NCBI GenBank assembly: GCA_016212705.1 | Contig: JACREU010000009.1 | Span: 1-39,276 of the forward strand | DNA length: 39,276 nucleotides | DNA from: Deltaproteobacteria bacterium | Lineage (GTDB): Bacteria > Desulfobacterota > GWC2-55-46 | Reading direction: 5' to 3' | Shown here: piece after piece, positions 3,923-15,115 of the stretch | How the letters are laid out: every line of letters begins with the position of its first letter | Numbering within the stretch: the stretch's first letter is position 1 | Notes under the pieces: model-generated | Seen by the model: only the letters and a program-made list of their open reading frames with translations | The model's database searches: none | Told to the model about the DNA's origin: nothing | Made by a program: the position numbers and the translations under genes

Positions 3923-3991
3923 TTAAGGCTACCTCTAAAAATTAGATATTTTTTAAGGTCAGAAAAATGCGCTTTTTGGAAGCAGCCTTAA
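3923..3991 (-). ncRNA. Candidate structured 3' element after cysN (three-way junction)
   Basis: The minus-strand RNA opens with UUAAGGCU, which includes the cysN stop codon UAA, and closes with its perfect complement AGCCUUAA (8 bp). Inside lie two hairpins: AAAAA-GCGCA-UUUUU, and ACCUU/GAGGU extended across one A-A mismatch by AAAAA/UUUUU plus a U-A pair. The three helices make a compact three-way junction with helix 3 abutting the closing stem. It could be a 3' stabiliser, an unusual terminator or a small repeat element with terminal inverted repeats. No known RNA family was recognised; this was folded by eye. Confidence 0.35.
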
Positions 3992-5208
3992 ATGATTATC
4001 CCTCCGGCCACAGGTCGCCCGTCATGCTCGAGTACGAACCTGCCGAGCTCCGGGATATCCGAGAACCTCTCTATCGCCACTTCCGCGCTCAAGGTTATGT
4101 CGACCTCGGCCACCTCGGCCTGGCTGATGCTCGCCGCGTCGGTCACGGCCTCTTTTTCTGAGGCCGGGTCGAACCTCCTCCTTATCCTCTCAATCTTGCC
4201 CCTCGTCTCCTGTGTGGCGCACTTGAAGGTGAGCGGGATCCCGAGCTTATAGTCCTTGTCTATCATCCAGAAGATGTTCGCGTGGACGGTTCTCGTGATC
4301 GTAGGGGAGAGGGTCTCAGAGAGTATGTCCCCCCTTTTTACCTCCGCGCCTTCGAGGATGAGCCCGACGCACTCGCCTGTTTGCGCCTCTTTAAGGTCAG
4401 GCTCCAGATACTTCTTTATGCTCGCGACCTTCGCCTTAGTCTTTCCGGGGAGGACCCAGAGCCCCTGGCCTTCTATCAATCTGCCGGCCTCTATGCGTCC
4501 GGCTACTATCTTCTGCCCGCTTATCTCATAGACGTCCTGTACAGGGAACCTCGCGCCCTTCTCCTCTATCTTCATCTCCTCGAAGTTGTCGAGCGCCTGA
4601 AGGACCGTCGGACCCTTGTACCAGGAGAGCTTGTCGCTCGCCGCGGCTACGTTCTCTCCTTCCATGGCGGAAATAGGGATGATGTACGAGGGCGTTATCC
4701 CGTACTTCATCGTTACCTCCTCTATCCGCTTTTTGAGGTCGAGGAAGGCGGCCTCGGAATACCCGGCGAGGTCCATCTTATTGACCGTCACAACGACCTG
4801 CTTTATGCCGAGGAGGCTCAGGATGTAGCAGTGGCGTAACGTCTGCTCCTGAATGCCCCTCGTTATCTCCACGAGGAGGATGGCGGCCTCTGCCTGCGAC
4901 GAGCCGCTTATCATGTTTTTCAAGAACTCCTTGTGCCCAGGGGCGTCGATTATCACGTACTTCCTTTTGGGTGTGGCGAAAAAGGTGTGGGCGATGTCGA
5001 TCGTTATGCCCCTCGTCCTCTCCTCCTCGAGGTTGTCCATCACGTAGGCGAACTCAAGCGGACGGCCAAGCTCCGCGCATACCCTTTTGACCTCTTCGAG
5101 CTTCTCGGGCGGCAGAGACCCGGAATCAAAGAAGAGCCTGCCTATGAGGGTAGACTTCCCGTGGTCGACCGAGCCGACGATGACTATATGCAATGATCTT
5201 TCTTCCAT
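3988..5208 (-). CDS. cysN: Sulfate adenylyltransferase GTPase subunit CysN
   Basis: The 406-aa large subunit of ATP sulfurylase couples GTP hydrolysis to adenylyl-sulfate (APS) formation by CysD. All GTPase motifs are present: GSVDHGKST (12-20), the switch-I region RTRGITID, DAPGH, NKMD and SAMEGEN. EF-Tu-like beta-barrel domains follow to the C-terminus. There is no fused CysC (APS kinase) domain, and the protein is shorter than the ~475-aa E. coli CysN. ATG 5208 is preceded by GGGGGAG. It lies nine bases after cysD and is the last gene of a seven-gene string. Neither APS kinase, APS reductase nor a sulfotransferase appears in the window, so the fate of APS is open: sulfur assimilation encoded elsewhere, or glycan/lipid sulfation. 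Confidence 0.93.
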   Translation of the reverse strand: MEERSLHIVIVGSVDHGKSTLIGRLFFDSGSLPPEKLEEVKRVCAELGRPLEFAYVMDNLEEERTRGITIDIAHTFFATPKRKYVIIDAPGHKEFLKNMISGSSQAEAAILLVEITRGIQEQTLRHCYILSLLGIKQVVVTVNKMDLAGYSEAAFLDLKKRIEEVTMKYGITPSYIIPISAMEGENVAAASDKLSWYKGPTVLQALDNFEEMKIEEKGARFPVQDVYEISGQKIVAGRIEAGRLIEGQGLWVLPGKTKAKVASIKKYLEPDLKEAQTGECVGLILEGAEVKRGDILSETLSPTITRTVHANIFWMIDKDYKLGIPLTFKCATQETRGKIERIRRRFDPASEKEAVTDAASISQAEVAEVDITLSAEVAIERFSDIPELGRFVLEHDGRPVAGGIII

Positions 5209-5217
5209 AACTCCCCC

Positions 5218-6021
5218 TTACATGTATCCTAAAGACCTTAGCTTCTGCATCGTATACGCGTCCTCCTTGTCCTGCGCCCTTCCGGCGCGCTCGGAGGTGT
5301 GCGTGGACTCAAGCTCGGCTATTATCTCGTCCACATTCGACGCGGTCGAGTCTATCGGACTACAGCACGGCGCGCACCCGATGGAGCGGTATCTCTTGCC
5401 GTTCTTGCTCACGTACAGCTCCGTCAGAGGGATATTCTCCTTCTTCATGTACTTCCAGATGTCGAGCTCGGTCATGTGGAGTATCGGGTGGACCCTGAAG
5501 TGGTTGTCCTCTGCGGCGGTGGACTTGTACTGGTCCCACAGCTCCGCCGGCTGGTTCTCGTAGTCCCACTTGAAGTTCTCGTCCCTCGGGGAGAAGACCC
5601 TCTCCTTCGCCCTTATCCCGTGTTCGTCGCGCCTTATGCCGAGCAGGAGCGCCTTGAAGCCGTTCTTCTCGATTATCTGCTTCAGGGCGTTGGTCTTCAG
5701 CTCGTTACAGCAGTCGAGCTTCGTCCCCTTGCCAGGCCCCATGCCCGCCTCTACCTGCCCTTCGTTCCTGCCGACGATGAGGTTTAAGCCCCACTTCTTC
5801 GCGTACTCGTCCCTGAACCTGTACATCTCGGGGAACTTGTAAGTCGTGTCGATGTGTATCACCGGGAAAGGGACCACCCCGAAGAAGGCCTTTCTGACGA
5901 GCCAGAGGAGGGTCGTAGAGTCCTTGCCCACGGACCAGAGCATGGCGATGTTCCGGAACCTGAAGTACGCCTCCCGTATGATGAATATCGATTTGTTCTC
6001 AAGGGCGGTAAGATGGTCCAT
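5218..6021 (-). CDS. cysD: Sulfate adenylyltransferase catalytic subunit CysD
   Basis: This 267-aa small subunit of ATP sulfurylase makes APS and pyrophosphate from ATP and sulfate. The PP-loop motif SVGKDS sits at residues 30-35, and the CysD-typical RRDEHGIRAKER and CSPIDSTA-type segments follow; length matches the family. The ORF track starts at 6048, but the family begins MDHLTxLE, and ATG 6021 has AAGGAG eight bases upstream, so that start is chosen. This leaves a 10-base gap after the phosphohydrolase gene instead of an overlap. It is followed nine bases later by cysN. Function as a CysDN complex is secure; the downstream pathway is not. Confidence 0.95.
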   Translation of the reverse strand: MDHLTALENKSIFIIREAYFRFRNIAMLWSVGKDSTTLLWLVRKAFFGVVPFPVIHIDTTYKFPEMYRFRDEYAKKWGLNLIVGRNEGQVEAGMGPGKGTKLDCCNELKTNALKQIIEKNGFKALLLGIRRDEHGIRAKERVFSPRDENFKWDYENQPAELWDQYKSTAAEDNHFRVHPILHMTELDIWKYMKKENIPLTELYVSKNGKRYRSIGCAPCCSPIDSTASNVDEIIAELESTHTSERAGRAQDKEDAYTMQKLRSLGYM

Positions 6022-6031
6022 GAGTCTCTCC

Positions 6032-7378
6032 TTAAATAAACCTCTCAAGTATGATGGACGCGAGGTTTTCTATGTGCAGTCGTCCAAGGGGCGCCGTACC
6101 GGAGGGCATGACGCAGTGCGCGTCATGCCTCGTGTGCATGCCCCTGAAGTGCGAGGTCCCGAAGGCCTGCGGCTTTTTTATATTGCCCTTTATATCGAAA
6201 CCGTCGTTGCCAACGGCTACGAGGTCCGGGGAGCGGCCGGATTCATTCCCGGAATATAACTCCGTCCCATCGTAGACCCTTTTTATTACGGCGTTCCCAT
6301 CGCTGTCCTTTAAATCGATGAGAATGGATTTTATCTCGCTTAAAACCGCCCCCCTGTCTCTTGCCGGAACCGCCCCGCCGGGGTATCTGCCCTCGTAATT
6401 CAGATAAATCCGACCGGGGTCCATGACAAAGGCCTTTGAGCCCGCTCCTACCTGTTCGAAGTACTCGCGTACGGGGTCGAGCGTAAGCAACCCCTTCTCG
6501 ACAAAGAGCCTGTTAAGGTAGACCTCTTTCCTTATCGGCGCGAAGCCGTGGTCCGACATAGTCATAAACAAGCCGCGGCCGTTGGTAGAGGCCATGAACC
6601 TCTCAAAAACCCTTCCGATTATATCATCCATCTTCGTGTAAAAAAAGACGAATCTCTCGTGGTATTTGTGGGTCTTGTCCCGCGCCGCGTCGAAGAAGAA
6701 GTGGTGTAGCCTGTCGGTCTCGGTGACGACGCCTATGAAGAGGTCCCAGCGTTCATTGTCCATGAAGTGCATGAAGGCCTCCGCCCTTTTTTGAAGCGCG
6801 ATCAGCGCTTCGTCGAAAAAGGCGTCCGGCTTATCTGAGGCGTTAGAGGCCTCGATATCCATAATATAGTTTATTGAGCGGAGGTACTCATAGGCGGATT
6901 CCGGATAGGTGCCTTTCCTGAGGTCCGGGCAGACGAACCCGGATGTAAGGACGCCGTTAAGGGCCGGGGCCGGAAAGGTCTCAGGCATGTTGATGACGAT
7001 AGAGCGAAGGGTATTCGGCACGCGACCTTTGAATTTGTCAGCAAGTGTTGAGGCCCTTGCACCCGATGTCCCGCCTATAATGTCCCATAACGCGGGGGCC
7101 TTTATGGAAGCGTAATTAGGGAACGCCAGCCTGTACGTGTTGGGGAGGAGCTCCATAAAGCCGTAGATGCCGTGCTCTCCCGGGTTGACGCCGGTCATGA
7201 ACGAGGCCCACGAGGTCGACGACACGTCCGGTATGGAGGCGTCCATCTGTATGAGGCTGTAGCCTCCGGAGAGGATATTCTTGAGGTTCGGCATGACCCC
7301 CTGCTCCGCGTACTCCGAAAGAAGCGTTTGCGGCGCGCCGTCTATGCCGAGGACAAAGACCTTTTTGGATAAATCCAT
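6032..7378 (-). CDS. Alkaline-phosphatase-superfamily phosphohydrolase/phosphodiesterase
   Basis: This 448-aa protein belongs to the type I phosphodiesterase/nucleotide pyrophosphatase branch of the alkaline phosphatase superfamily (COG3379-like). Metal and catalytic motifs are in place: GIDGA (Asp13), the nucleophile region SSTSWASFMTG (Thr55 or a neighbouring Ser), TETDRLHH, MSDHGF and a late MHTRHDAH. It lacks a signal peptide, so a cytoplasmic role is likely, hydrolysing a nucleotide, sugar-nucleotide or PAPS/APS-like phosphodiester; the substrate is inferred only from class. The in-frame TTG at 7384 is less likely than ATG 7378, which follows the upstream stop by two bases (TGACGATG) with AGGAG upstream. 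Its place between a molybdoenzyme and cysDN suggests a shared pathway. Confidence 0.85.
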   Translation of the reverse strand: MDLSKKVFVLGIDGAPQTLLSEYAEQGVMPNLKNILSGGYSLIQMDASIPDVSSTSWASFMTGVNPGEHGIYGFMELLPNTYRLAFPNYASIKAPALWDIIGGTSGARASTLADKFKGRVPNTLRSIVINMPETFPAPALNGVLTSGFVCPDLRKGTYPESAYEYLRSINYIMDIEASNASDKPDAFFDEALIALQKRAEAFMHFMDNERWDLFIGVVTETDRLHHFFFDAARDKTHKYHERFVFFYTKMDDIIGRVFERFMASTNGRGLFMTMSDHGFAPIRKEVYLNRLFVEKGLLTLDPVREYFEQVGAGSKAFVMDPGRIYLNYEGRYPGGAVPARDRGAVLSEIKSILIDLKDSDGNAVIKRVYDGTELYSGNESGRSPDLVAVGNDGFDIKGNIKKPQAFGTSHFRGMHTRHDAHCVMPSGTAPLGRLHIENLASIILERFI

Positions 7379-7380
7379 CG

Positions 7381-9495
7381 TCAACTCTTCTCCTTTTCCA
7401 CCTTGCAGAGCAAGCCCCGGAGCTGATAGGAGCCGAACCCGGGGTCGTACGGCGGTTTGTTGTTAGTAAGCACATTGGCGTTGGACTCGAATACGCCGAA
7501 CTCGGGGCCGGCCTTTTCCGGGAACCACCACCCGTGCTCGACACTCACTACGCGCGGGTGTATGTCGTCAGTAACGCGCGCCCTCATCCTTATTGCGCCG
7601 CGCGGCGACGATACTTTGACCCAGTCGCCGTTTGATATGCCGAGAGAGCTGGCGACTATGGTGTGCATCTCAGCTTCTGGGTCGGGTTTAAGTTCGCGGA
7701 GCGACTTAACCTGCCTGTGTTCGCTGTGGAAGAACTCAAGACGCCTCGCACCTGTTATCAATATGTACGGGAACTCTTCGGCAAGGACCGGGGCGGACGC
7801 CGGGCTCTCAGGAGGCTCCTTGAACGTCGGCAGGCCGTCGTATCCCATCCGCTCAAGAGTCTTGCAGAAGAGCTCTACCTTCCTCGAAGGCGTCCTGAAG
7901 CCGGACTTCTCGAACCTCCTGTACTCGTGCTTCGGGTGGGCGCAGACCGTCTTTACAAGGTCTGCGTATTTTACGCCTAAAGGCTCCAGCTGATAGTCCA
8001 TGACCTCGTCAAGCCCATCGCCCGCGCCGGGGAGCTCAAGCTTTTTTGCGAGCTCGTCCATTATCCACTCGTCCTGCCTGCACTCGCCGGTCTGCGTTAT
8101 CGCGGACTGCGCCATGACCATGTTCTCAACGACCAGAGGATAGCCGATTACCTGTTTGGTCTCTGTCCAGAAAGCGGCTGGGAGGACATAGTCGGCGATA
8201 GCCGCGGTCGGCGTCATGAAGAGGTCCGTTACGACAAGGAGGTCGAGGGCTTTTAGACTCTCATAAACCTCTTTAGAATTCGCGACTGTGGCAAGCGGGT
8301 TGTTGCCGAATATGAGGAGCGCCCTTACCCTGTACGGGTCGCCTGTCCTCATGGCCTTAAAGAGCGCGGGTATGTGGGCCGAGGGCATGAAGGCCCGCCA
8401 GCCTCCTAAAAGCTTGAACTCGTCTGACCCGAGCCGCTTCTTCCCCATCCCCTCGGGGAGCTTGTCTTTTAAGGTAGGATAGCTCCTTATGACGTTCATC
8501 CCGAGTATGTCGCCGCCCGGGACGTCGATATTCCCGGTTATGGCGCGGAGCAACGCCACCGCCCTTACGGTCTGGAGCGAATTGAAGTTTTGCTCCAACC
8601 CCAATCCCCACTCAAGTATCGCGGGCTTGTTCGTCGCGTATGCGCGCGCCGCTTCGCTTATAGAGGCGGCAGGGATGGTCGTAATCGGCTCTGCCCACGC
8701 GGGCGTAAAGGGCTCGACGTGTTTCTTTAATTCCTCGAAGCCGACGGTCCACTTCTCGACGAACTCCTTGTCATGGAGCCCTTCGTTAATGATTGTGTTT
8801 ATCATGGCGAGCGCGAGCGCCGCGTCCGTGCCGGGGCGAATCGCGAGCCACTGGCCGCACCTCTTCGCCGTCTCGGTCCTCCGGGGGTCGATCGCAATCG
8901 ATACACAGCCCTTGTCGAGCGCCCTCTTGACAGAGGGCGCGAGCTCTCCGTCGGGGCCGGTTATAAGCGGGTTGTGCGCCCAGAAGAGTATGCACTTCGG
9001 CGCGACCTCTCCGTAATAATCGCCGACTACGAAGCCGCCGTATGTGAGGTTGCTTACGGTTATCCTCGGTATGAAGCACTGCGCGAGCCCCGGCTCGTAC
9101 CAGTTCGGCGTGCCGAGCTGGTTCGCGAACCTGACTACATGCATGTAGTGGTGCCTGCCGGTCCCCTGGCCGAGCGCGACGGATTCCGGCCCCGTCTCAT
9201 TTCTAATCGCGCCGACCTTTGCTGAGATCTCCGAGAGCGCTTCGTCCCACGATATCCTCTCCCACTTAAGAGAGCCCCTCTCGCCCTTTCTACGAAGCGG
9301 GTATTTGAGCCTCTCCGGGTGGTTCGCGATTTCAGGCGAGAAGACCCCCTTGGGGCACATCCAGCCCTGGTTCATCGGAGACGCCGGGTCGCCCTTAACT
9401 TTCACGACCTTGCCGTCCTTCACATGGACGAGCACTCCGCAGCCGCCGTGGCAGACCCTGCATACGCTCTTTATGATAGATACGCCGTCGTTCAT
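7381..9495 (-). CDS. Molybdopterin (bis-MGD) oxidoreductase, stand-alone catalytic subunit
   Basis: This 704-aa protein is a DMSO-reductase-family molybdenum or tungsten enzyme. The N-terminal [4Fe-4S] motif is complete (Cys12, Cys15, Cys19, Cys47; CRVCHGGCG...MCPKG). A Cys at residue 140 in AQCFIPR is at the usual metal-ligand position (the Sec/Cys140 region of formate dehydrogenase H). Further MGD-binding stretches (FWAHNPL, AIDPRRTETA) and a C-terminal MopB domain (GDWVKVSSPRGAIRMRA) follow. No Tat signal is present, so it is cytoplasmic. No iron-sulfur or membrane partner subunit is encoded nearby. It resembles the broad formate dehydrogenase/acetylene hydratase-type group rather than one named enzyme. 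It sits two bases from both neighbours in the operon, an unusual location for such an enzyme. Confidence 0.88.
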   Translation of the reverse strand: MNDGVSIIKSVCRVCHGGCGVLVHVKDGKVVKVKGDPASPMNQGWMCPKGVFSPEIANHPERLKYPLRRKGERGSLKWERISWDEALSEISAKVGAIRNETGPESVALGQGTGRHHYMHVVRFANQLGTPNWYEPGLAQCFIPRITVSNLTYGGFVVGDYYGEVAPKCILFWAHNPLITGPDGELAPSVKRALDKGCVSIAIDPRRTETAKRCGQWLAIRPGTDAALALAMINTIINEGLHDKEFVEKWTVGFEELKKHVEPFTPAWAEPITTIPAASISEAARAYATNKPAILEWGLGLEQNFNSLQTVRAVALLRAITGNIDVPGGDILGMNVIRSYPTLKDKLPEGMGKKRLGSDEFKLLGGWRAFMPSAHIPALFKAMRTGDPYRVRALLIFGNNPLATVANSKEVYESLKALDLLVVTDLFMTPTAAIADYVLPAAFWTETKQVIGYPLVVENMVMAQSAITQTGECRQDEWIMDELAKKLELPGAGDGLDEVMDYQLEPLGVKYADLVKTVCAHPKHEYRRFEKSGFRTPSRKVELFCKTLERMGYDGLPTFKEPPESPASAPVLAEEFPYILITGARRLEFFHSEHRQVKSLRELKPDPEAEMHTIVASSLGISNGDWVKVSSPRGAIRMRARVTDDIHPRVVSVEHGWWFPEKAGPEFGVFESNANVLTNNKPPYDPGFGSYQLRGLLCKVEKEKS

Positions 9496-9497
9496 AG

Positions 9498-10466
9498 TTA
9501 TCTTTTAATAGTCCCCCAGAGCGCTCCTGTGCCGATAGACACGGCGCGGAGAAACAACAGCGCCGGGGCAAATGGCGCTACAAGCGGGTCCCTGAAAAGC
9601 GCAATCTTGAGGAACGGGAGGGTAGTCAGAAAAAAGAGGGCCGCAACGGCCAGGAACAAAATCCCGCCCCAGGGCCTGATAAGCAAGGCGACGGGGAGCG
9701 AGAGCGCCGCAATCAGGGAAAGGAGGGTCTGGAATTTAAGCGTCTGCGGCGTGTAGGTGTCCTTGAGCATCTTGTCCGGAAATTTTTTATAGACGACCAT
9801 CCGCCAGTAGCCCCGCCAGAACTTTATCCTCGCGTACCTCTTTATCGAGGCAGGGTGGTTAAGGTGGCTCACAACGGCGTTGGGGTTGAATACCATCTTG
9901 AAGCCCTTGGCCGACATCCTGTATGAGAGCTCGGTGTCCTCGTTGTTGGCCGCAGGAAAGCTCGTGTCGAACCCGCCCATCTTGTCGAAGATATCCTTCC
10001 TGAAACCGGCGGAGTAGGTGTCTATCATGTCGATGGAGGCGGCCTTCCTCAACATCTCGAACCTCTCCTCGAACTCTATCTGGCAGAACCTCGCGACTAT
10101 CTCCTTTTGTCCAGTCCTGTACGCGCCCTTGACCGCTACGACGTCCTTATCATCAAAGGGCCTCGCCATCTCCCTTATCCAGTTCTTCTCAGGGACGCAG
10201 TCGGCGTCGGTAAAGAGTATTATCCCGCCTGTGGCCTCCTCTACACCCTTATTCCGGGCGGTAGCCGGCCCCTTGTTGGTCTGCCAGAGGTATTTTACCC
10301 CATGCCCTTTTATTATTTCGGCGGTAGAGTCCCTGGAGCCGTCGTCGACGACTATCACTTCAACAAGGCGCTTCGGATAGTCCTGTCCGGCGAGCGCGGA
10401 CAGGCACCTCCCGATGGTATTCTCCGAATTGTAGGCTGGGACTATTACGGAGACGCGGGGGAGCAT
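9498..10466 (-). CDS. Family 2 glycosyltransferase with C-terminal membrane helices
   Basis: This 322-aa protein has a GT-A fold N-terminal domain (RVSVIVPAYNSE; nucleotide-binding VVDDGSRDST; metal-binding TDADC) over roughly residues 1-230. Two or three hydrophobic helices span about 245-315, anchoring it to the inner membrane. The segment SHLNHPASIKRYARIKFWRGYWR is typical of membrane-anchored GT2 enzymes. It transfers an activated sugar to an unknown lipid or glycan acceptor. ATG 10466 follows the upstream stop by two bases, and the downstream molybdoenzyme begins two bases after its own stop. It is the only glycosyltransferase inside the CysDN operon and so is the main link between that unit and surface glycans. 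Confidence 0.88.
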   Translation of the reverse strand: MLPRVSVIVPAYNSENTIGRCLSALAGQDYPKRLVEVIVVDDGSRDSTAEIIKGHGVKYLWQTNKGPATARNKGVEEATGGIILFTDADCVPEKNWIREMARPFDDKDVVAVKGAYRTGQKEIVARFCQIEFEERFEMLRKAASIDMIDTYSAGFRKDIFDKMGGFDTSFPAANNEDTELSYRMSAKGFKMVFNPNAVVSHLNHPASIKRYARIKFWRGYWRMVVYKKFPDKMLKDTYTPQTLKFQTLLSLIAALSLPVALLIRPWGGILFLAVAALFFLTTLPFLKIALFRDPLVAPFAPALLFLRAVSIGTGALWGTIKR

Positions 10467-10468
10467 TT

Positions 10469-11935
10469 TTACGCGCTCGCCTTCTTTATGTCCGAACCCT
10501 TGAGGAGGTACTTGAAGAAAGTCCTCGCGGCCTTGACCGTCCTCTTTATATCGCTCGGCGACGTAATGAGCTGTTTGAGCTTATACAGGATGTAGCCGGG
10601 CCTCAGATAGAATTCCCTCCGGGCGTCGTCGCAGAACCTTACGAGGTCCTCGGCAGAGAGGTCCTCGGTCCTTATGACCGTATTGTGGAGCCCCTCCGGG
10701 GTTATCCAGCGCGAGAAGTCGGTGGACCGGATGAGCCCCTTCTGGCTGTACCAGTCGTATGCCTCTGTGCCGGGGTAGACCATCACCGGGTAGAACTGGA
10801 CGGTATCAGGGCATAAATCCTTGGCGAGATTAAGGGTCTCCTGCAAGGTCTCCTTCGTCTCTCCGGGGAGCCCGGCCATGAAACAGCCGTGGATAAGGAG
10901 CCCCGCCCTCTTGGCGTCACGCATGAAGGCCTTCATCTCATCGGGCTTCGTCTTCTTCTTCATGCTGTCGAGTATCTTCTGGCTGCCGCTCTCGAACCCG
11001 ACGCAGAGCGAACGGCACCCGGCTTCCTTAATCGCCTTCATCGATTCATAATCTATGCCTATGCGAGAGTTGGCGGTCCAGGTGATCCTGACCCCCCTCT
11101 TTTTGATAAGCTCAGAGAGCGCCTTCAGCCTCTTTTTGTCCACAGTCAGGGTGTCGTCCTCGAAGAAGATCGACTTGGCGTGGGGGAAGTTCTTTATGAT
11201 GTATTCCATCTCGTCTACGACGTTTTCCACGGACCTGCTTCTAAAGCCCCTGCCCATGAGCGTCTGCGGGTAGACGCAGAATGTGCACGGGAACGGGCAT
11301 CCCCTCGAAGTCGTTATAGTCACCATGGGAAAAAGCGCGTTGGGGTTGAAGTAGTTCTCTATCCTCAAAAACCTCTTATAGACCTTTGAGACGAACGGCA
11401 GTTCGTCGAGGTTCTCGATAAACGGCCGCCTCTCGTTATGCGCGATGTTGCCGCCGTCCTTCCAGCAGATGCCCTTTACAGAGCCGAGCGGCCCGTTCTT
11501 TGAAAGCGTATCGGCGAGGTCGAGGATGGTGAAGTCGTATTCGAACCTCGCTACCGCGTCAAGCCTCGCATCCATCTTCATGACGTCGTCCGGGAGGGCC
11601 GAGACGTGCGTGCCGACGGCGATTATGAACGCGCCGGGCATGAGGTCTTTAAGCCTCCCGGCCATGTCGATGTCGTTATTTATGGACGGGGTCGACGTGT
11701 CCATGACGATGAGACCTGGGCCGAAGGCAAGGGCGCGGTTCTCGACGTCCTGTATGGTGAGCCCGTCAGCAGGGGCGTCGATGAAGTCTATATCGTGCCC
11801 CTTTTCCATCACGACCGAGGCGGCGGAGGCGAGCCAGAGCGGAAAGTACAGCGTGCCGCTCTTCGTGACCGCGGGCGACCTCTGGGGCCTGGAGAATTTT
11901 TTCAGGAACGGGGGGTTCAAAAACAATATCTTCAT
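10469..11935 (-). CDS. B12-binding-type radical SAM protein
   Basis: This 488-aa protein has an N-terminal Rossmann-like domain as in cobalamin-binding radical SAM enzymes (KILFLNPPF, residues 1-130). A radical SAM core follows with CxxxCxxC at Cys213, Cys217 and Cys220 (RGCPFPCTFC). A classical DxHxxG cobalamin motif is not obvious, so B12 use is by family resemblance only. Members catalyse difficult methylations or rearrangements, often on lipids, sugars or peptides; the reaction here is unknown. The ORF track start (12058) adds 41 residues overlapping the DUF362 gene; ATG 11935 overlaps that gene's TAA by one base (TAATG), indicating translational coupling. Confidence 0.87.
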   Translation of the reverse strand: MKILFLNPPFLKKFSRPQRSPAVTKSGTLYFPLWLASAASVVMEKGHDIDFIDAPADGLTIQDVENRALAFGPGLIVMDTSTPSINNDIDMAGRLKDLMPGAFIIAVGTHVSALPDDVMKMDARLDAVARFEYDFTILDLADTLSKNGPLGSVKGICWKDGGNIAHNERRPFIENLDELPFVSKVYKRFLRIENYFNPNALFPMVTITTSRGCPFPCTFCVYPQTLMGRGFRSRSVENVVDEMEYIIKNFPHAKSIFFEDDTLTVDKKRLKALSELIKKRGVRITWTANSRIGIDYESMKAIKEAGCRSLCVGFESGSQKILDSMKKKTKPDEMKAFMRDAKRAGLLIHGCFMAGLPGETKETLQETLNLAKDLCPDTVQFYPVMVYPGTEAYDWYSQKGLIRSTDFSRWITPEGLHNTVIRTEDLSAEDLVRFCDDARREFYLRPGYILYKLKQLITSPSDIKRTVKAARTFFKYLLKGSDIKKASA

Positions 11936-13176
11936 TATGCGATTTCCTTGGTTATCCTTTCGTATTGGCGTAGCTGTTCTGAGAGAAAGCCCATTGAGCC
12001 CTTGAAACCTATCGCCCCCGACGGGCAGACGAGGAAGCAGTACTGGCAACCGATGCACCCGTTGTCCTTAGCGGCGACGACATCGGGGAGCTTGAGCTTT
12101 ACCGGGCAATAGTCGGCGCACTTGGTGCACCCTTTGACGCACCTGGCCTTATCGAACGAAAAACCCTTGAACTCCATCTCGGTCTTTATGAAGTTGTCCT
12201 GCCTGAGACCCGTCTTGAAGAGGAGGTTCCCGAAAAACCGCGTGTTGCAGAGATGGCTGAAGACCTTCGTGTTCCTCACCGCGAGAAAATACTTCTGCCT
12301 CTTGGGGCTGTGGATAAAGGAGGCGAAGGCGTTAGCCACCGGCTCCTTGAACTTCCTTTTAACGCCGGACAGATCTATGGACGAGGCGAACCTCAGGTGG
12401 TCTTTTGTAAGGAGCCCGGCCGCTTCCGCGGCCTTCAGGGTCCGGACCTTCTTGTAGTCGAAGTCGGCCAGGCGCGCGCAGACGAGGTCAAGGAGATAGG
12501 GGTCCGTCCCGATGAGGACGACCCCGGTCCTTACCGGCGTGCCCCTTGTCGGCCCGAGCCCTTCCATGGAGATGAGGCCGTCGACTATGTGGAGGCCGGG
12601 CTTCACCCTCTTATTGATGTTCACGATATTTTTGGCGAGGTGGAGGTGGGTCTTCTTCTTGTTCTCCTGGCCGACGAGACAGCCCATGAGGTTTTTGAGG
12701 CACACGCTCATCCCGGCCTCGAAGTGGGTCTTCAGCTTAGGCATGTTTATGAGGAAGTCCGCCTCGACGCACTCCCTCGCGACACTCGCCTTTACGCCGT
12801 CCTCGAACCCTATTTCGACCTTCTTCGAGTAGTTGAGGTCTATTACCTTTACGCCGTAGAACTTCGCGAGCTGGTCAAAGGAGAGCCTCGATATCACGCT
12901 TATCCCGGACCTGTAAAAGCCGGAGTTCGTCCCCTCGGCTATCGATATATCCCCGTACCCGCAACCTTTGAGGAACTTTATAACGGCGGCGACGAGTCTT
13001 AAGTCCGTCGTATTGCCGGTAAGCGCGTTCATGTTGCTGTTCATGTTGGGCTTTATTACGATCTTCGCGGACATGTCGCCGGGCAGGAGGTCGGAGTACC
13101 TCTTCATGGCCTCCCCCACCTTCGCCTCTATTTCCGAGACCGAATACGCCTTTATTATATCAAGCCTGAACGCCAT
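11935..13176 (-). CDS. DUF362 protein with C-terminal ferredoxin domain
   Basis: This 413-aa protein has a DUF362 domain (KIVIKPNMN..., AEGTNSGF..., NMPKLKTH..., LKNLMGCLVG) over about residues 1-300. A 2[4Fe-4S] ferredoxin module lies at about 346-388: CVKGCTKCADYCP and CIGCQYCFLVCP. DUF362 proteins are common in anaerobes; their function is not established, and electron transfer is inferred from the clusters. ATG 13176 (MAFRLDII) has AAGGCAG just upstream, while ATG 13206 has no visible ribosome-binding site, so the shorter form is chosen. It is the first gene of the seven-gene unit, after a 247-base gap, and may supply electrons to the downstream radical SAM or molybdoenzyme. Confidence 0.85.
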   Translation of the reverse strand: MAFRLDIIKAYSVSEIEAKVGEAMKRYSDLLPGDMSAKIVIKPNMNSNMNALTGNTTDLRLVAAVIKFLKGCGYGDISIAEGTNSGFYRSGISVISRLSFDQLAKFYGVKVIDLNYSKKVEIGFEDGVKASVARECVEADFLINMPKLKTHFEAGMSVCLKNLMGCLVGQENKKKTHLHLAKNIVNINKRVKPGLHIVDGLISMEGLGPTRGTPVRTGVVLIGTDPYLLDLVCARLADFDYKKVRTLKAAEAAGLLTKDHLRFASSIDLSGVKRKFKEPVANAFASFIHSPKRQKYFLAVRNTKVFSHLCNTRFFGNLLFKTGLRQDNFIKTEMEFKGFSFDKARCVKGCTKCADYCPVKLKLPDVVAAKDNGCIGCQYCFLVCPSGAIGFKGSMGFLSEQLRQYERITKEIA

Positions 13177-13423
13177 ACCCTGCCTTTTTAGCGAGTTTGA
13201 ACCCATCTGTTACCGTTTGACGGGCCGGATATCGCGGACGGTCAACGGCACCGGGGCCGCGAAACGCTATCGACATACCGCTCGAAAAAGGCGGCAAGTC
13301 AATCCTCATATTTTAAGATATTTCAACGAAAAATGGTAGAGAAATTAAGCGGGTTTAAAGGCTGGGTTTTAATCCGTGGGGGCCCGGCCCCGGGCGAGGC
13401 GCAGTGCGCAAAAAAAGCCCTGA

Positions 13424-13939
13424 TCATAACCTGCTCCTTATAAAACTCAGCAGGCGCGAGGCAACGGACGGCGCCCCGAAAGGACCGCTGTCTTTTTCGG
13501 CGAGCGCGCCCGTGCAACGCCTTGTCGCCTCTTTCCCGGTCGCTACGTACTCGACCCTGAAGACCGCCTTTACGACGTCTTTGAGCCTCGGGTCTATCTT
13601 CAGATGTATCTGCGGGTCGTCGTCCGGGAAAATCAGCTTTCCCTTCTCCTCAAACCCGTTCGTAGCGCACTCCTGGACCCTTATCACCTTGCCGTCCGCA
13701 CTCCAAAGCTCTATCCTCCTGAGCTTTATGACGGCATAGCCGTTCAGGGGGTCGAACCTCAAGGCCTTAGCCCCATTGAACGGCTTAAGGTCGAATTCCA
13801 TTTCCTTGACACCGTCAAAGTCTCCGAGCGCCATTGTGACGGACGTAGCTACGCCGAACCCATTGCCAATATCAACGAACAACTCCGCGAAGGGGGCCGC
13901 AGGAACGGTGACAGGGGTTTTTTTGCCGATAAGTCCCAT
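13424..13939 (-). CDS. Protein of unknown function, beta-sandwich-like domain
   Basis: This 171-aa cytoplasmic protein was not matched to a named family. It reads as alternating beta strands: PFAELFVDIGNGFG, EMEFDLKPFNGAKALRFDPLN, VIKLRRIELWSADGK, then a basic C-terminal tail. The pattern FDL...LRFDPLNG...I..I.L resembles, from memory, small all-beta modules fused to glycosyltransferases or methyltransferases in O-antigen loci; that link is inference. ATG 13939 has GGAGG nine bases upstream and follows the GT9 stop by two bases, better than the track's TTG 13945. It is the last gene before the CysDN unit. Possible roles are glycan binding or assisting the adjacent GT9. Confidence 0.6.
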   Translation of the reverse strand: MGLIGKKTPVTVPAAPFAELFVDIGNGFGVATSVTMALGDFDGVKEMEFDLKPFNGAKALRFDPLNGYAVIKLRRIELWSADGKVIRVQECATNGFEEKGKLIFPDDDPQIHLKIDPRLKDVVKAVFRVEYVATGKEATRRCTGALAEKDSGPFGAPSVASRLLSFIRSRL

Positions 13940-13941
13940 AT

Positions 13942-15009
13942 TCAAAGACCTCCGCCTGAAAAGCCTGCCAGCTCACGGACCTTGTCGAAGACCTCCTCGA
14001 CAGTTACCATCCTCATGCACTCGAGCGTCCTGCAATCAGGGAAACTGCCGTGGGAATAACACGGGGAGCATTTAAGCCCCTGCCCCTTCCAGAAATAAAA
14101 ACTGCCCCTTGTAAGCGGGTGCTTCTCGCGCGGGTCGGTCGGGCCGAATATGGAGACGACTGGCCTGCCGACTGCGGCCGCAAGGTGCATGGGGCCGCTG
14201 TCGTTCGCCACGACCAACGAGCAGTTTTCCATGAAGGCGGCGGTCTCCTCAAGGGTCGTCTTTCCGATGAGGTCGAGGACGCCCTCCGGCAAGGCCCGGT
14301 TTTCAGTGAACCACCTGTCGCCTGAGGAGCCGAAAACGGCTACTTTGAACCCGGCCCTGGCCAGAAGCGCCGTCAGGGCCCTGAAGTTCTCCTCCAGCCA
14401 CCTCCTCGAATCCATCACCTCGTTTACATTCCTCGCGCCGCCAGGGGCGATGCCGATGAGCTTGCCCGGCTTCATGCCGAGCCCCGCCAACCTTTCGGAG
14501 GCGCCCTTCCTTGCCGCGTCGCCTATGAAAAAATCCATATGGAGGCCGTCTTCACGCGCTCCGGCGAGTTTTACGGCCTCGATATAATGGATTATATGGT
14601 GTACCGGCGCGTCGAAAGAGACCGACCCTGTCAGCAGAATGCCCGATGCGAAGCCTCTCTTAAGGCCGTATAGCCTCTTGACGCCGCATAACCTCAGAAG
14701 GGCCCCGTACTTCCAGTCCCTGTGTAGGACGAACCCGGCGTCGAACCGCTCTTTCCTCATATCCCTTACGAGGTCCCTTATGACCCCGGCCTTCTCCTTG
14801 ACCGAGCCCTTGAAAAAAAGCCTGTCGTCTATCGCGTGGACCTCGTCCACATACGGGTTTCTCCTGAGCGCGTCGCTTACCGAGGAGCCCACAAGCCATG
14901 TGACGGACGCATCAGGGAAGGACTTTTTAAGCGAGCGCGCCGCGGGCGTCACCATGAGGACGTCGCCCATTCCGGCGAGCTTCATTATCAAAAACTTCCG
15001 GGGTCTCAT
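13942..15009 (-). CDS. Family 9 glycosyltransferase (LPS heptosyltransferase type)
   Basis: This 355-aa protein has the GT9 architecture: N-terminal KFLIMKLAGMGDVLMVTPA, a mid-domain GIAPGGARNVNEV donor-side motif, and the C-terminal signature NDSGPMHLAAAVGRPVVSIFGPTDP. Members transfer heptose or related sugars from ADP-activated donors to the LPS core or chain on the cytoplasmic side. A real heptosyltransferase role would imply LPS; the sugar may differ. The track start (15096) adds 29 unlikely residues; ATG 15009 aligns with the family N-terminus. It has no clear ribosome-binding site of its own, but a 32-codon ORF with a strong site ends eight bases upstream, so coupled translation is plausible. 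Confidence 0.87.
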   Translation of the reverse strand: MRPRKFLIMKLAGMGDVLMVTPAARSLKKSFPDASVTWLVGSSVSDALRRNPYVDEVHAIDDRLFFKGSVKEKAGVIRDLVRDMRKERFDAGFVLHRDWKYGALLRLCGVKRLYGLKRGFASGILLTGSVSFDAPVHHIIHYIEAVKLAGAREDGLHMDFFIGDAARKGASERLAGLGMKPGKLIGIAPGGARNVNEVMDSRRWLEENFRALTALLARAGFKVAVFGSSGDRWFTENRALPEGVLDLIGKTTLEETAAFMENCSLVVANDSGPMHLAAAVGRPVVSIFGPTDPREKHPLTRGSFYFWKGQGLKCSPCYSHGSFPDCRTLECMRMVTVEEVFDKVRELAGFSGGGL

Positions 15010-15016
15010 AGACGGA

Positions 15017-15115
15017 TCAAAACCGATCAGTCGCCTTGACGGAAACGGCGAGCGCGCCGGGCGCGATTGCGTTGCCGCTGGACGCCAGCCGGACATTGAA
15101 AGTATTTCGGCGCAT
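15017..15115 (-). CDS. Small ORF (32 codons) with strong ribosome-binding site, upstream of GT9
   Basis: ATG 15115 is preceded by GGGGAGG nine bases upstream, one of the best ribosome-binding sites in the window. The frame encodes MRRNTFNVRLASSGNAIAPG... and ends at TGA 15017-15019, seven bases before the GT9 ATG. It is absent from the ORF track because of its size. It starts six bases after the previous gene's stop. It may be a translational-coupling leader, a remnant of a longer gene, or chance. No family recognised. Confidence 0.35.
   Translation of the reverse strand: MRRNTFNVRLASSGNAIAPGALAVSVKATDRF

Follow-up and report, generated by a model that had tools for sequence, protein, structure and literature searches.

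We conclude that the window enzyme, a molybdoenzyme-like protein encoded in the 39,276-nucleotide stretch of Deltaproteobacteria DNA analyzed here (the window), belongs to a distinct clade that is co-inherited with a B12-binding radical SAM protein and a GT2 glycosyltransferase, and usually with a DUF362 protein. A cassette of AMP-ligase and IolM-type dehydrogenase genes, usually located beside SLBB/Wzc-type export genes, is co-inherited with the same clade. The link to a cell-envelope polysaccharide (or lipid-linked glycan) pathway is well supported, and membership of the enzyme in such a pathway is very likely. The explanation that we favor, by a modest margin, is that it is a dedicated catalytic Mo/W enzyme of surface-polysaccharide synthesis, with reductive dehydroxylation alpha to a ketone of a sugar or cyclitol as the most plausible reaction. 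The reaction is inferred. The gene and its predicted active-site elements are as follows.

7381 to 9495, minus strand: stand-alone MopB-fold (Mo/W-bisPGD, [4Fe-4S]) enzyme, acetylene hydratase/catechol dehydroxylase-like; 704 aa, ATG start
9355 to 9462, minus strand: [4Fe-4S] motif C12-x2-C15-H16-G-G-C19 ... C47, invariant in 41 homologues; His16 replaces Asp13 of acetylene hydratase
9076 to 9078, minus strand: Cys140, predicted Mo/W ligand, aligned to Cys141 of 2e7z

The Fe4S4, molybdopterin-binding, and dinucleotide-binding domains of the catalytic MopB (DMSO reductase) superfamily are all found in the protein, with the Pfam models Molybdop_Fe4S4, Molybdopterin, and Molydop_binding each well over cut-off. 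The reading frame is retained at 74 to 96% identity in ten related genomes, and therefore it is not a chance open reading frame. A first-pass annotation of the DNA had pointed to four cluster cysteines and a metal ligand at Cys140. This claim held, as C12, C15, C19, C47, and C140 are invariant in an alignment of 41 homologues (45 to 96% identity), and Cys140 occupies the canonical amino acid ligand position, matching the tungsten ligand Cys141 of acetylene hydratase. No Tat signal was seen in the enzyme, and there is no room for one, because an in-frame stop lies 14 codons upstream of the first cluster cysteine and most orthologues begin 8 to 15 residues ahead of it. No gene for an Fe-S or NrfD-type membrane subunit adjoins the enzyme gene, nor is there an adjacent 4Fe-4S electron-transfer gene as in catechol dehydroxylases; the nearest is that of a DUF362-ferredoxin protein, three genes away. 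Thus, the claim that the enzyme lacks a Tat signal and partner subunits also held, with the addition of this ferredoxin-domain protein upstream. The annotation had noted that catalytic subunits of this superfamily are usually paired, but the stand-alone, Tat-less form is no anomaly in itself, because acetylene hydratase is likewise. By sequence, this is a complete, cytoplasmic, stand-alone MopB-fold protein with an intact active site. Catalysis with Mo/W is very likely, although inferred.

Besides the window gene, the draft genome (86% complete) has three further genes of the MopB fold: two NuoG-like genes located beside complex I genes and a QrcB-like gene beside a QrcC-like gene. Given the nature of these three, only the window gene stands out in the draft as a clear candidate for a catalytic Mo/W-bisPGD enzyme. 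MoaA was found in this genome. Cofactor synthesis, considered as a co-occurrence marker, is uninformative because nearly all relatives carry MoaA.

By both sequence and fold, the closest structurally characterized protein is the acetylene hydratase of Pelobacter acetylenicus (PDB 2e7z). It is the best PDB sequence match (380 bits, compared to 270 for polysulfide/thiosulfate reductase and no more than 225 for formate dehydrogenases) and the best fold match to the AlphaFold model (pLDDT 92.2, pTM 0.92), with a TM-score of 0.91/0.88 at 34% identity. The top NCBIfam matches, FDH-alpha (TIGR01591; 349 bits, cut-off 666) and PhsA (288 bits, cut-off 694), both fail, and the DmsA score is well under cut-off. 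Identity as a formate dehydrogenase or thiosulfate reductase was rejected, as the models are under cut-off and the tree and fold point elsewhere. Placement in a respiratory or formate dehydrogenase clade, which the first-pass annotation had said would refute its proposal, was not obtained.

Like the window enzyme, acetylene hydratase is cytoplasmic, stand-alone, and about 700 aa long, with a Cys-ligated metal and a [4Fe-4S] cluster. The roles of its residues Asp13, Ile142, Trp179, Trp472, Lys48, Trp293, and Arg606 are known from the acetylene hydratase literature. In the sequence alignment, equivalents of Cys141, Lys48, Trp293, and Arg606 are kept. In contrast, the catalytic Asp13 is His (His16) in the window enzyme and all 41 homologues, Ile142 is Phe (Phe141) in the window enzyme and Phe in nearly all homologues, Trp179 is Gly in the window enzyme and nearly all homologues, and Trp472 falls in an alignment gap and is probably changed. 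Because of these replacements, we infer from sequence that, strictly speaking, the protein is no acetylene hydratase. The envelope-polysaccharide setting also belongs only to the window enzyme.

The published closest relatives of acetylene hydratase are the catechol dehydroxylases, and a small class of these Mo-dependent dehydroxylases is Tat-less and probably soluble (PMC7028382). The window enzyme resembles this small class (Dodh/Cldh, among catechol and corticoid dehydroxylases that also include Dadh and Hcdh) in both respects, whereas in its clade no Fe-S subunit is encoded alongside, and the link is to a polysaccharide module. Some more distant relatives (L103, L105, and L107) do show a dehydroxylase-like layout with a small Fe-S gene. 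The exact relation to the characterized dehydroxylases is unresolved, as acetylene hydratase, PsrA, and FdhF were the only reference proteins in the enzyme tree.

The enzyme gene lies within a tight run of seven genes, in the order DUF362-ferredoxin, B12 radical SAM, GT2, enzyme, phosphodiesterase, CysD, and CysN-like. The other six genes and one further glycosyltransferase gene are listed here.

11935 to 13206, minus strand: DUF362 protein with a C-terminal 2x[4Fe-4S] ferredoxin domain, candidate electron donor
10469 to 11935, minus strand: B12-binding radical SAM protein, HpnJ-like but below the HpnJ cut-off; the open reading frame opens at 12058 and the likely ATG start is at 11935
9498 to 10466, minus strand: GT2 glycosyltransferase, conserved module member
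6032 to 7384, minus strand: type I phosphodiesterase of the alkaline phosphatase superfamily, no signal peptide seen
5218 to 6048, minus strand: CysD-type sulfate adenylyltransferase subunit, PRK05253 above cut-off
3988 to 5208, minus strand: CysN/EF1A-like GTPase, TIGR02034 just under cut-off
13942 to 15096, minus strand: GT9 glycosyltransferase; in most other loci, the gene ahead of DUF362 is a GT9 of another subgroup

The spacing is operon-like, with 2 bp between the GT2 stop and the enzyme start and a 4-bp overlap with the phosphodiesterase gene, so that the tight spacing claimed in the first-pass annotation is confirmed. Its inference of an unusual biosynthetic substrate is supported; the identity of the substrate is unresolved. 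The DUF362 gene is co-directional with the enzyme gene and three genes upstream, and its ferredoxin domain is a possible electron donor. A Pfam scan of the window open reading frames detected no APS kinase or sulfotransferase domain beside the CysD/CysN-like pair (3988 to 6048). Positions 13424 to 38889 of the window form a large glycan locus with several GT4, GT2, and GT9 genes, GDP-mannose dehydratase-like genes, methyltransferases, a flavin amine oxidase-like protein, and a Wzt-type ABC ATPase.

Orthologues of the enzyme, the radical SAM protein (at least 69% identity), DUF362, and GT2 (at least 61%) occur in the same 11 of 59 related genomes, which cover six genera and two families, and in none of the other 48. 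In one of the 11 (G053), the enzyme is on a separate contig from the other three genes. Outside the 11, more distant homologues do exist, for example a radical SAM copy at 50% and a GT2 at 54%. The window genome itself encodes a second HpnJ-like B12 radical SAM protein (G000:C76:51178-52614), 50% identical to the window copy and also present in relatives without the module.

The pattern extends to other phyla. Among 50 named genomes with some homologue of the enzyme, a radical SAM orthologue (52 to 71%) was found in 26, accompanied by GT2 in 22 and DUF362 in 19 of these. The carriers are anammox Planctomycetes, Nitrospirota, cable bacteria, Desulfobulbaceae, and Marichromatium. All radical SAM-bearing rows fall on one side of a single branch of the enzyme tree (a quick tree; SH-aLRT 96), requiring one change of this trait, compared to 25.7 under label shuffling. 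A sister row (L062) has a radical SAM homologue at 45%. The radical SAM gene was undetected in three genomes with close enzyme homologues, L052, L055, and L106; in L055 the enzyme gene lies at the end of a contig, and in L106 it is broken. The enzyme diverges in step with the radical SAM, GT2, and DUF362 proteins (Mantel r of 0.87, 0.85, and 0.89; 0 of 5000 permutations). Neither the presence/absence nor the Mantel statistics are corrected for shared ancestry, which contributes to all of them. DUF362 is absent from some module genomes, including those of Kuenenia and Marichromatium, and therefore it cannot be the sole electron donor.

The local arrangement is less constant than the gene set. 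The Deltaproteobacteria-named relatives repeat the seven-gene order described above for the window, and in other phyla the recurring unit is GT9, DUF362, radical SAM, GT2. The enzyme gene adjoins GT2 in some Nitrospirota, Desulfobulbaceae, Kuenenia, and Marichromatium and is elsewhere sometimes on another contig; it is not beside the radical SAM/GT2 pair in every phylum. The first-pass annotation had suggested looking for a clade consistently next to radical SAM, DUF362, and cysDN genes. Such a clade exists, but CysD/CysN genes adjoin the enzyme gene only in the Deltaproteobacteria-named set and at a single Nitrospirota locus.

In Desulfobulbaceae and Marichromatium, the enzyme gene has a Zn-dehydrogenase gene of the IolM type nearby, and the Desulfobulbus copy is above the curated IolM cut-off. 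IolM (NF041097) is also present in the window genome (521.9 bits, cut-off 450). Across 73 genomes, it is above cut-off in 33 of 37 with the module (all 11 relatives and 22 of 26 named genomes) and in 0 of 36 others (Fisher p of 1e-16). The IolM-type gene adjoins an AMP-ligase gene in all 19 loci read, often with an SLBB export gene as well. In the window genome, this cassette lies outside the window.

G000:C106:20000-34000 (L165): cassette of AMP-ligase, IolM-type Zn-dehydrogenase, SLBB export, Wzc-type kinase, CpsB, and Wzy_C genes

Here the AMP-ligase/IolM pair is followed by the SLBB gene and genes for a Wzc-type autokinase, a CpsB phosphatase, and a Wzy_C protein, and a sugar-transferase fusion flanks the cassette on the other side. 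Co-occurrence of the cassette with the window module is also seen in other phyla. Because the IolM/AMP-ligase cassette sits with SLBB, Wzc, CpsB, and Wzy_C genes, we link the enzyme to an exported polysaccharide, and we view the window locus as part of an export-polysaccharide island that is larger and dispersed, its IolM-type dehydrogenase, AMP-ligase, SLBB, Wzc, and Wzy genes lying elsewhere in the genome.

Although the module Zn-dehydrogenase passes the curated cut-off for IolM, the scyllo-inosose 3-dehydrogenase of the Thermotoga type, its activity is inferred, and it differs from that system in being located in an export-polysaccharide island without co-occurring inositol-1-phosphate synthase. 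Myo-inositol-1-phosphate synthase does not track the module: 5 of 11 module relatives and 3 of 12 others have the gene, and named carriers mostly lack it. An inositol substrate is therefore unsupported, and inositol made de novo was rejected. It is possible that the IolM match points to another polyol or to a nucleotide sugar.

The adjacent glycosyltransferase and HpnJ-like B12 radical SAM genes recall HpnI-HpnK-HpnJ of the bacteriohopanetetrol cyclitol ether pathway. However, the window radical SAM protein is under the HpnJ cut-off (TIGR03471; 413 bits, cut-off 578), and many carriers have no squalene-hopene cyclase. Because most module-bearing Nitrospirota and Desulfobulbaceae lack this cyclase, we rejected a hopanoid/BHT-cyclitol pathway. 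To our knowledge, no hopanoid step uses a molybdoenzyme.

We propose a mechanism in which the IolM-type dehydrogenase would oxidize a hydroxyl of a sugar or cyclitol to a ketone, giving an alpha-hydroxyketone that may serve as an enediol-like substrate comparable to a catechol. Its hydroxyl oxygen would bind the Cys140-ligated metal and pass to Mo(IV)/W(IV), so that the carbon is reductively dehydroxylated. The DUF362 ferredoxin domain, or a different ferredoxin, would then resupply electrons by way of Lys49 and the [4Fe-4S] cluster of the enzyme itself. The radical SAM protein, perhaps through an HpnJ-like reaction of the ring contraction type, and GT2 are predicted to work on the same sugar or cyclitol unit before polymerization and export. 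The closest characterized relatives of acetylene hydratase are reductive dehydroxylases; Mo-dependent dehydroxylases act on catechols, and a homologue is required for CC-1065 biosynthesis (PMC7028382). For one Mo dehydroxylase, the hydroxyl that is removed lies alpha to a ketone (PMC11574389). Nevertheless, hydration, dehydration, or oxidation fits the window enzyme sequence about equally well. Substrate and product are unidentified, and we hold dehydroxylation as the specific step only tentatively, with rather more doubt than confidence. A bolder reading, which we consider possible but do not expect to hold on balance, is that this is a cross-phylum pathway of anammox bacteria, magnetotactic Nitrospirota, cable bacteria, and relatives. 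Here the Mo/W-bisPGD enzyme would dehydroxylate (or add water to or remove it from) a keto-sugar or keto-cyclitol and the B12 radical SAM protein would remodel the same unit, yielding a surface-polysaccharide building block, deoxy or carbacyclic, that was not known before.

Two alternatives retain the pathway and change the chemistry, and we consider both unlikely. The enzyme could be a non-redox hydratase or dehydratase that hydrates or dehydrates an unsaturated or keto sugar, in which case the [4Fe-4S] cluster would merely keep the metal reduced. The nearest solved homologue by sequence and fold is indeed a hydratase, the window enzyme stands alone without an electron-transfer subunit, and the Cys ligand, Lys, Arg, and one of three compared Trp residues are kept. 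However, Asp13 is His in 41 of 41 homologues, Ile142 and Trp179 are replaced by Phe and Gly in nearly all, Trp472 is in a gap, and the operon usually includes a ferredoxin-domain protein. Alternatively, the enzyme could be oxidative, hydroxylating its substrate or oxidizing an alcohol and passing electrons to the DUF362 ferredoxin. The oxidative direction is common among MopB enzymes, and it is possible that this domain accepts electrons, but alcohol oxidation is already covered by the separate Zn dehydrogenase of the module, and the nearest characterized relatives are reductive or non-redox (PMC7028382).

Explanations outside the pathway fare worse. It is very unlikely that this is a respiratory or catabolic reductase or dehydrogenase (of the FDH or thiosulfate/polysulfide reductase type) found by chance among glycan genes. 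The top NCBIfam matches point that way, but both are far under cut-off and acetylene hydratase is nearer; moreover, there is no Tat signal or partner subunit, and co-inheritance with the radical SAM, GT2, and IolM genes is strict. Similarly improbable is a protein that keeps the MopB fold but has lost catalysis and serves structurally, like QrcB or NuoG. The remaining MopB-fold proteins of the draft are of these types, but the cluster and metal-ligand cysteines are invariant and MoaA is in the genome. A true acetylene hydratase supporting growth on acetylene is suggested by the identity and TM-score to 2e7z but is all but excluded by the loss of Asp13, Ile142, and Trp179 and by a setting of glycan genes rather than acetaldehyde metabolism.

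The fold is already known, and the novelty lies in the sub-clade and its biological setting. A search of the literature for the module gene combination or IolM returned nothing relevant, or background only. MopB enzymes have been studied mainly as respiratory or catabolic catalysts. If the preferred reading of a dedicated surface-polysaccharide enzyme is correct, a clade tied to export-polysaccharide assembly brings Mo/W chemistry into envelope biosynthesis, and ecologically important bacteria (anammox bacteria, cable bacteria, and magnetotactic Nitrospirota) would carry an unknown sugar or cyclitol. A broader range of reactions would also need to be considered for many uncharacterized acetylene hydratase-like proteins. 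The gene set is compact and testable, and one carrier, Marichromatium gracile DSM 203, is cultured.

The loci of other lineages have further features of their own. In five Planctomycetota loci (L034, L036, L037, L041, and L100), the enzyme gene is directly followed by a shared, conserved block of unannotated genes (173, 125, 451, 267, 704, and 88 aa) on the opposite strand. In magnetotactic-type Nitrospirota (L050, L051, L053, L056, L057, L058, and L059), an SLBB polysaccharide export gene is immediately upstream of the enzyme gene. The enzyme of the Desulfarculales relatives L062 and L065, which are outside the core clade, is paired with AMP-ligase, Zn-ADH, and chorismate mutase/DAHP synthase genes. 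In Pseudomonadota homologues (L074 to L087; 50 to 54% identity), Ile, Leu, or Met replaces the Lys between the Fe-S cluster and the pterin; these loci often contain a second MopB gene of about 1000 aa, in several cases with a 278-aa gene alongside.
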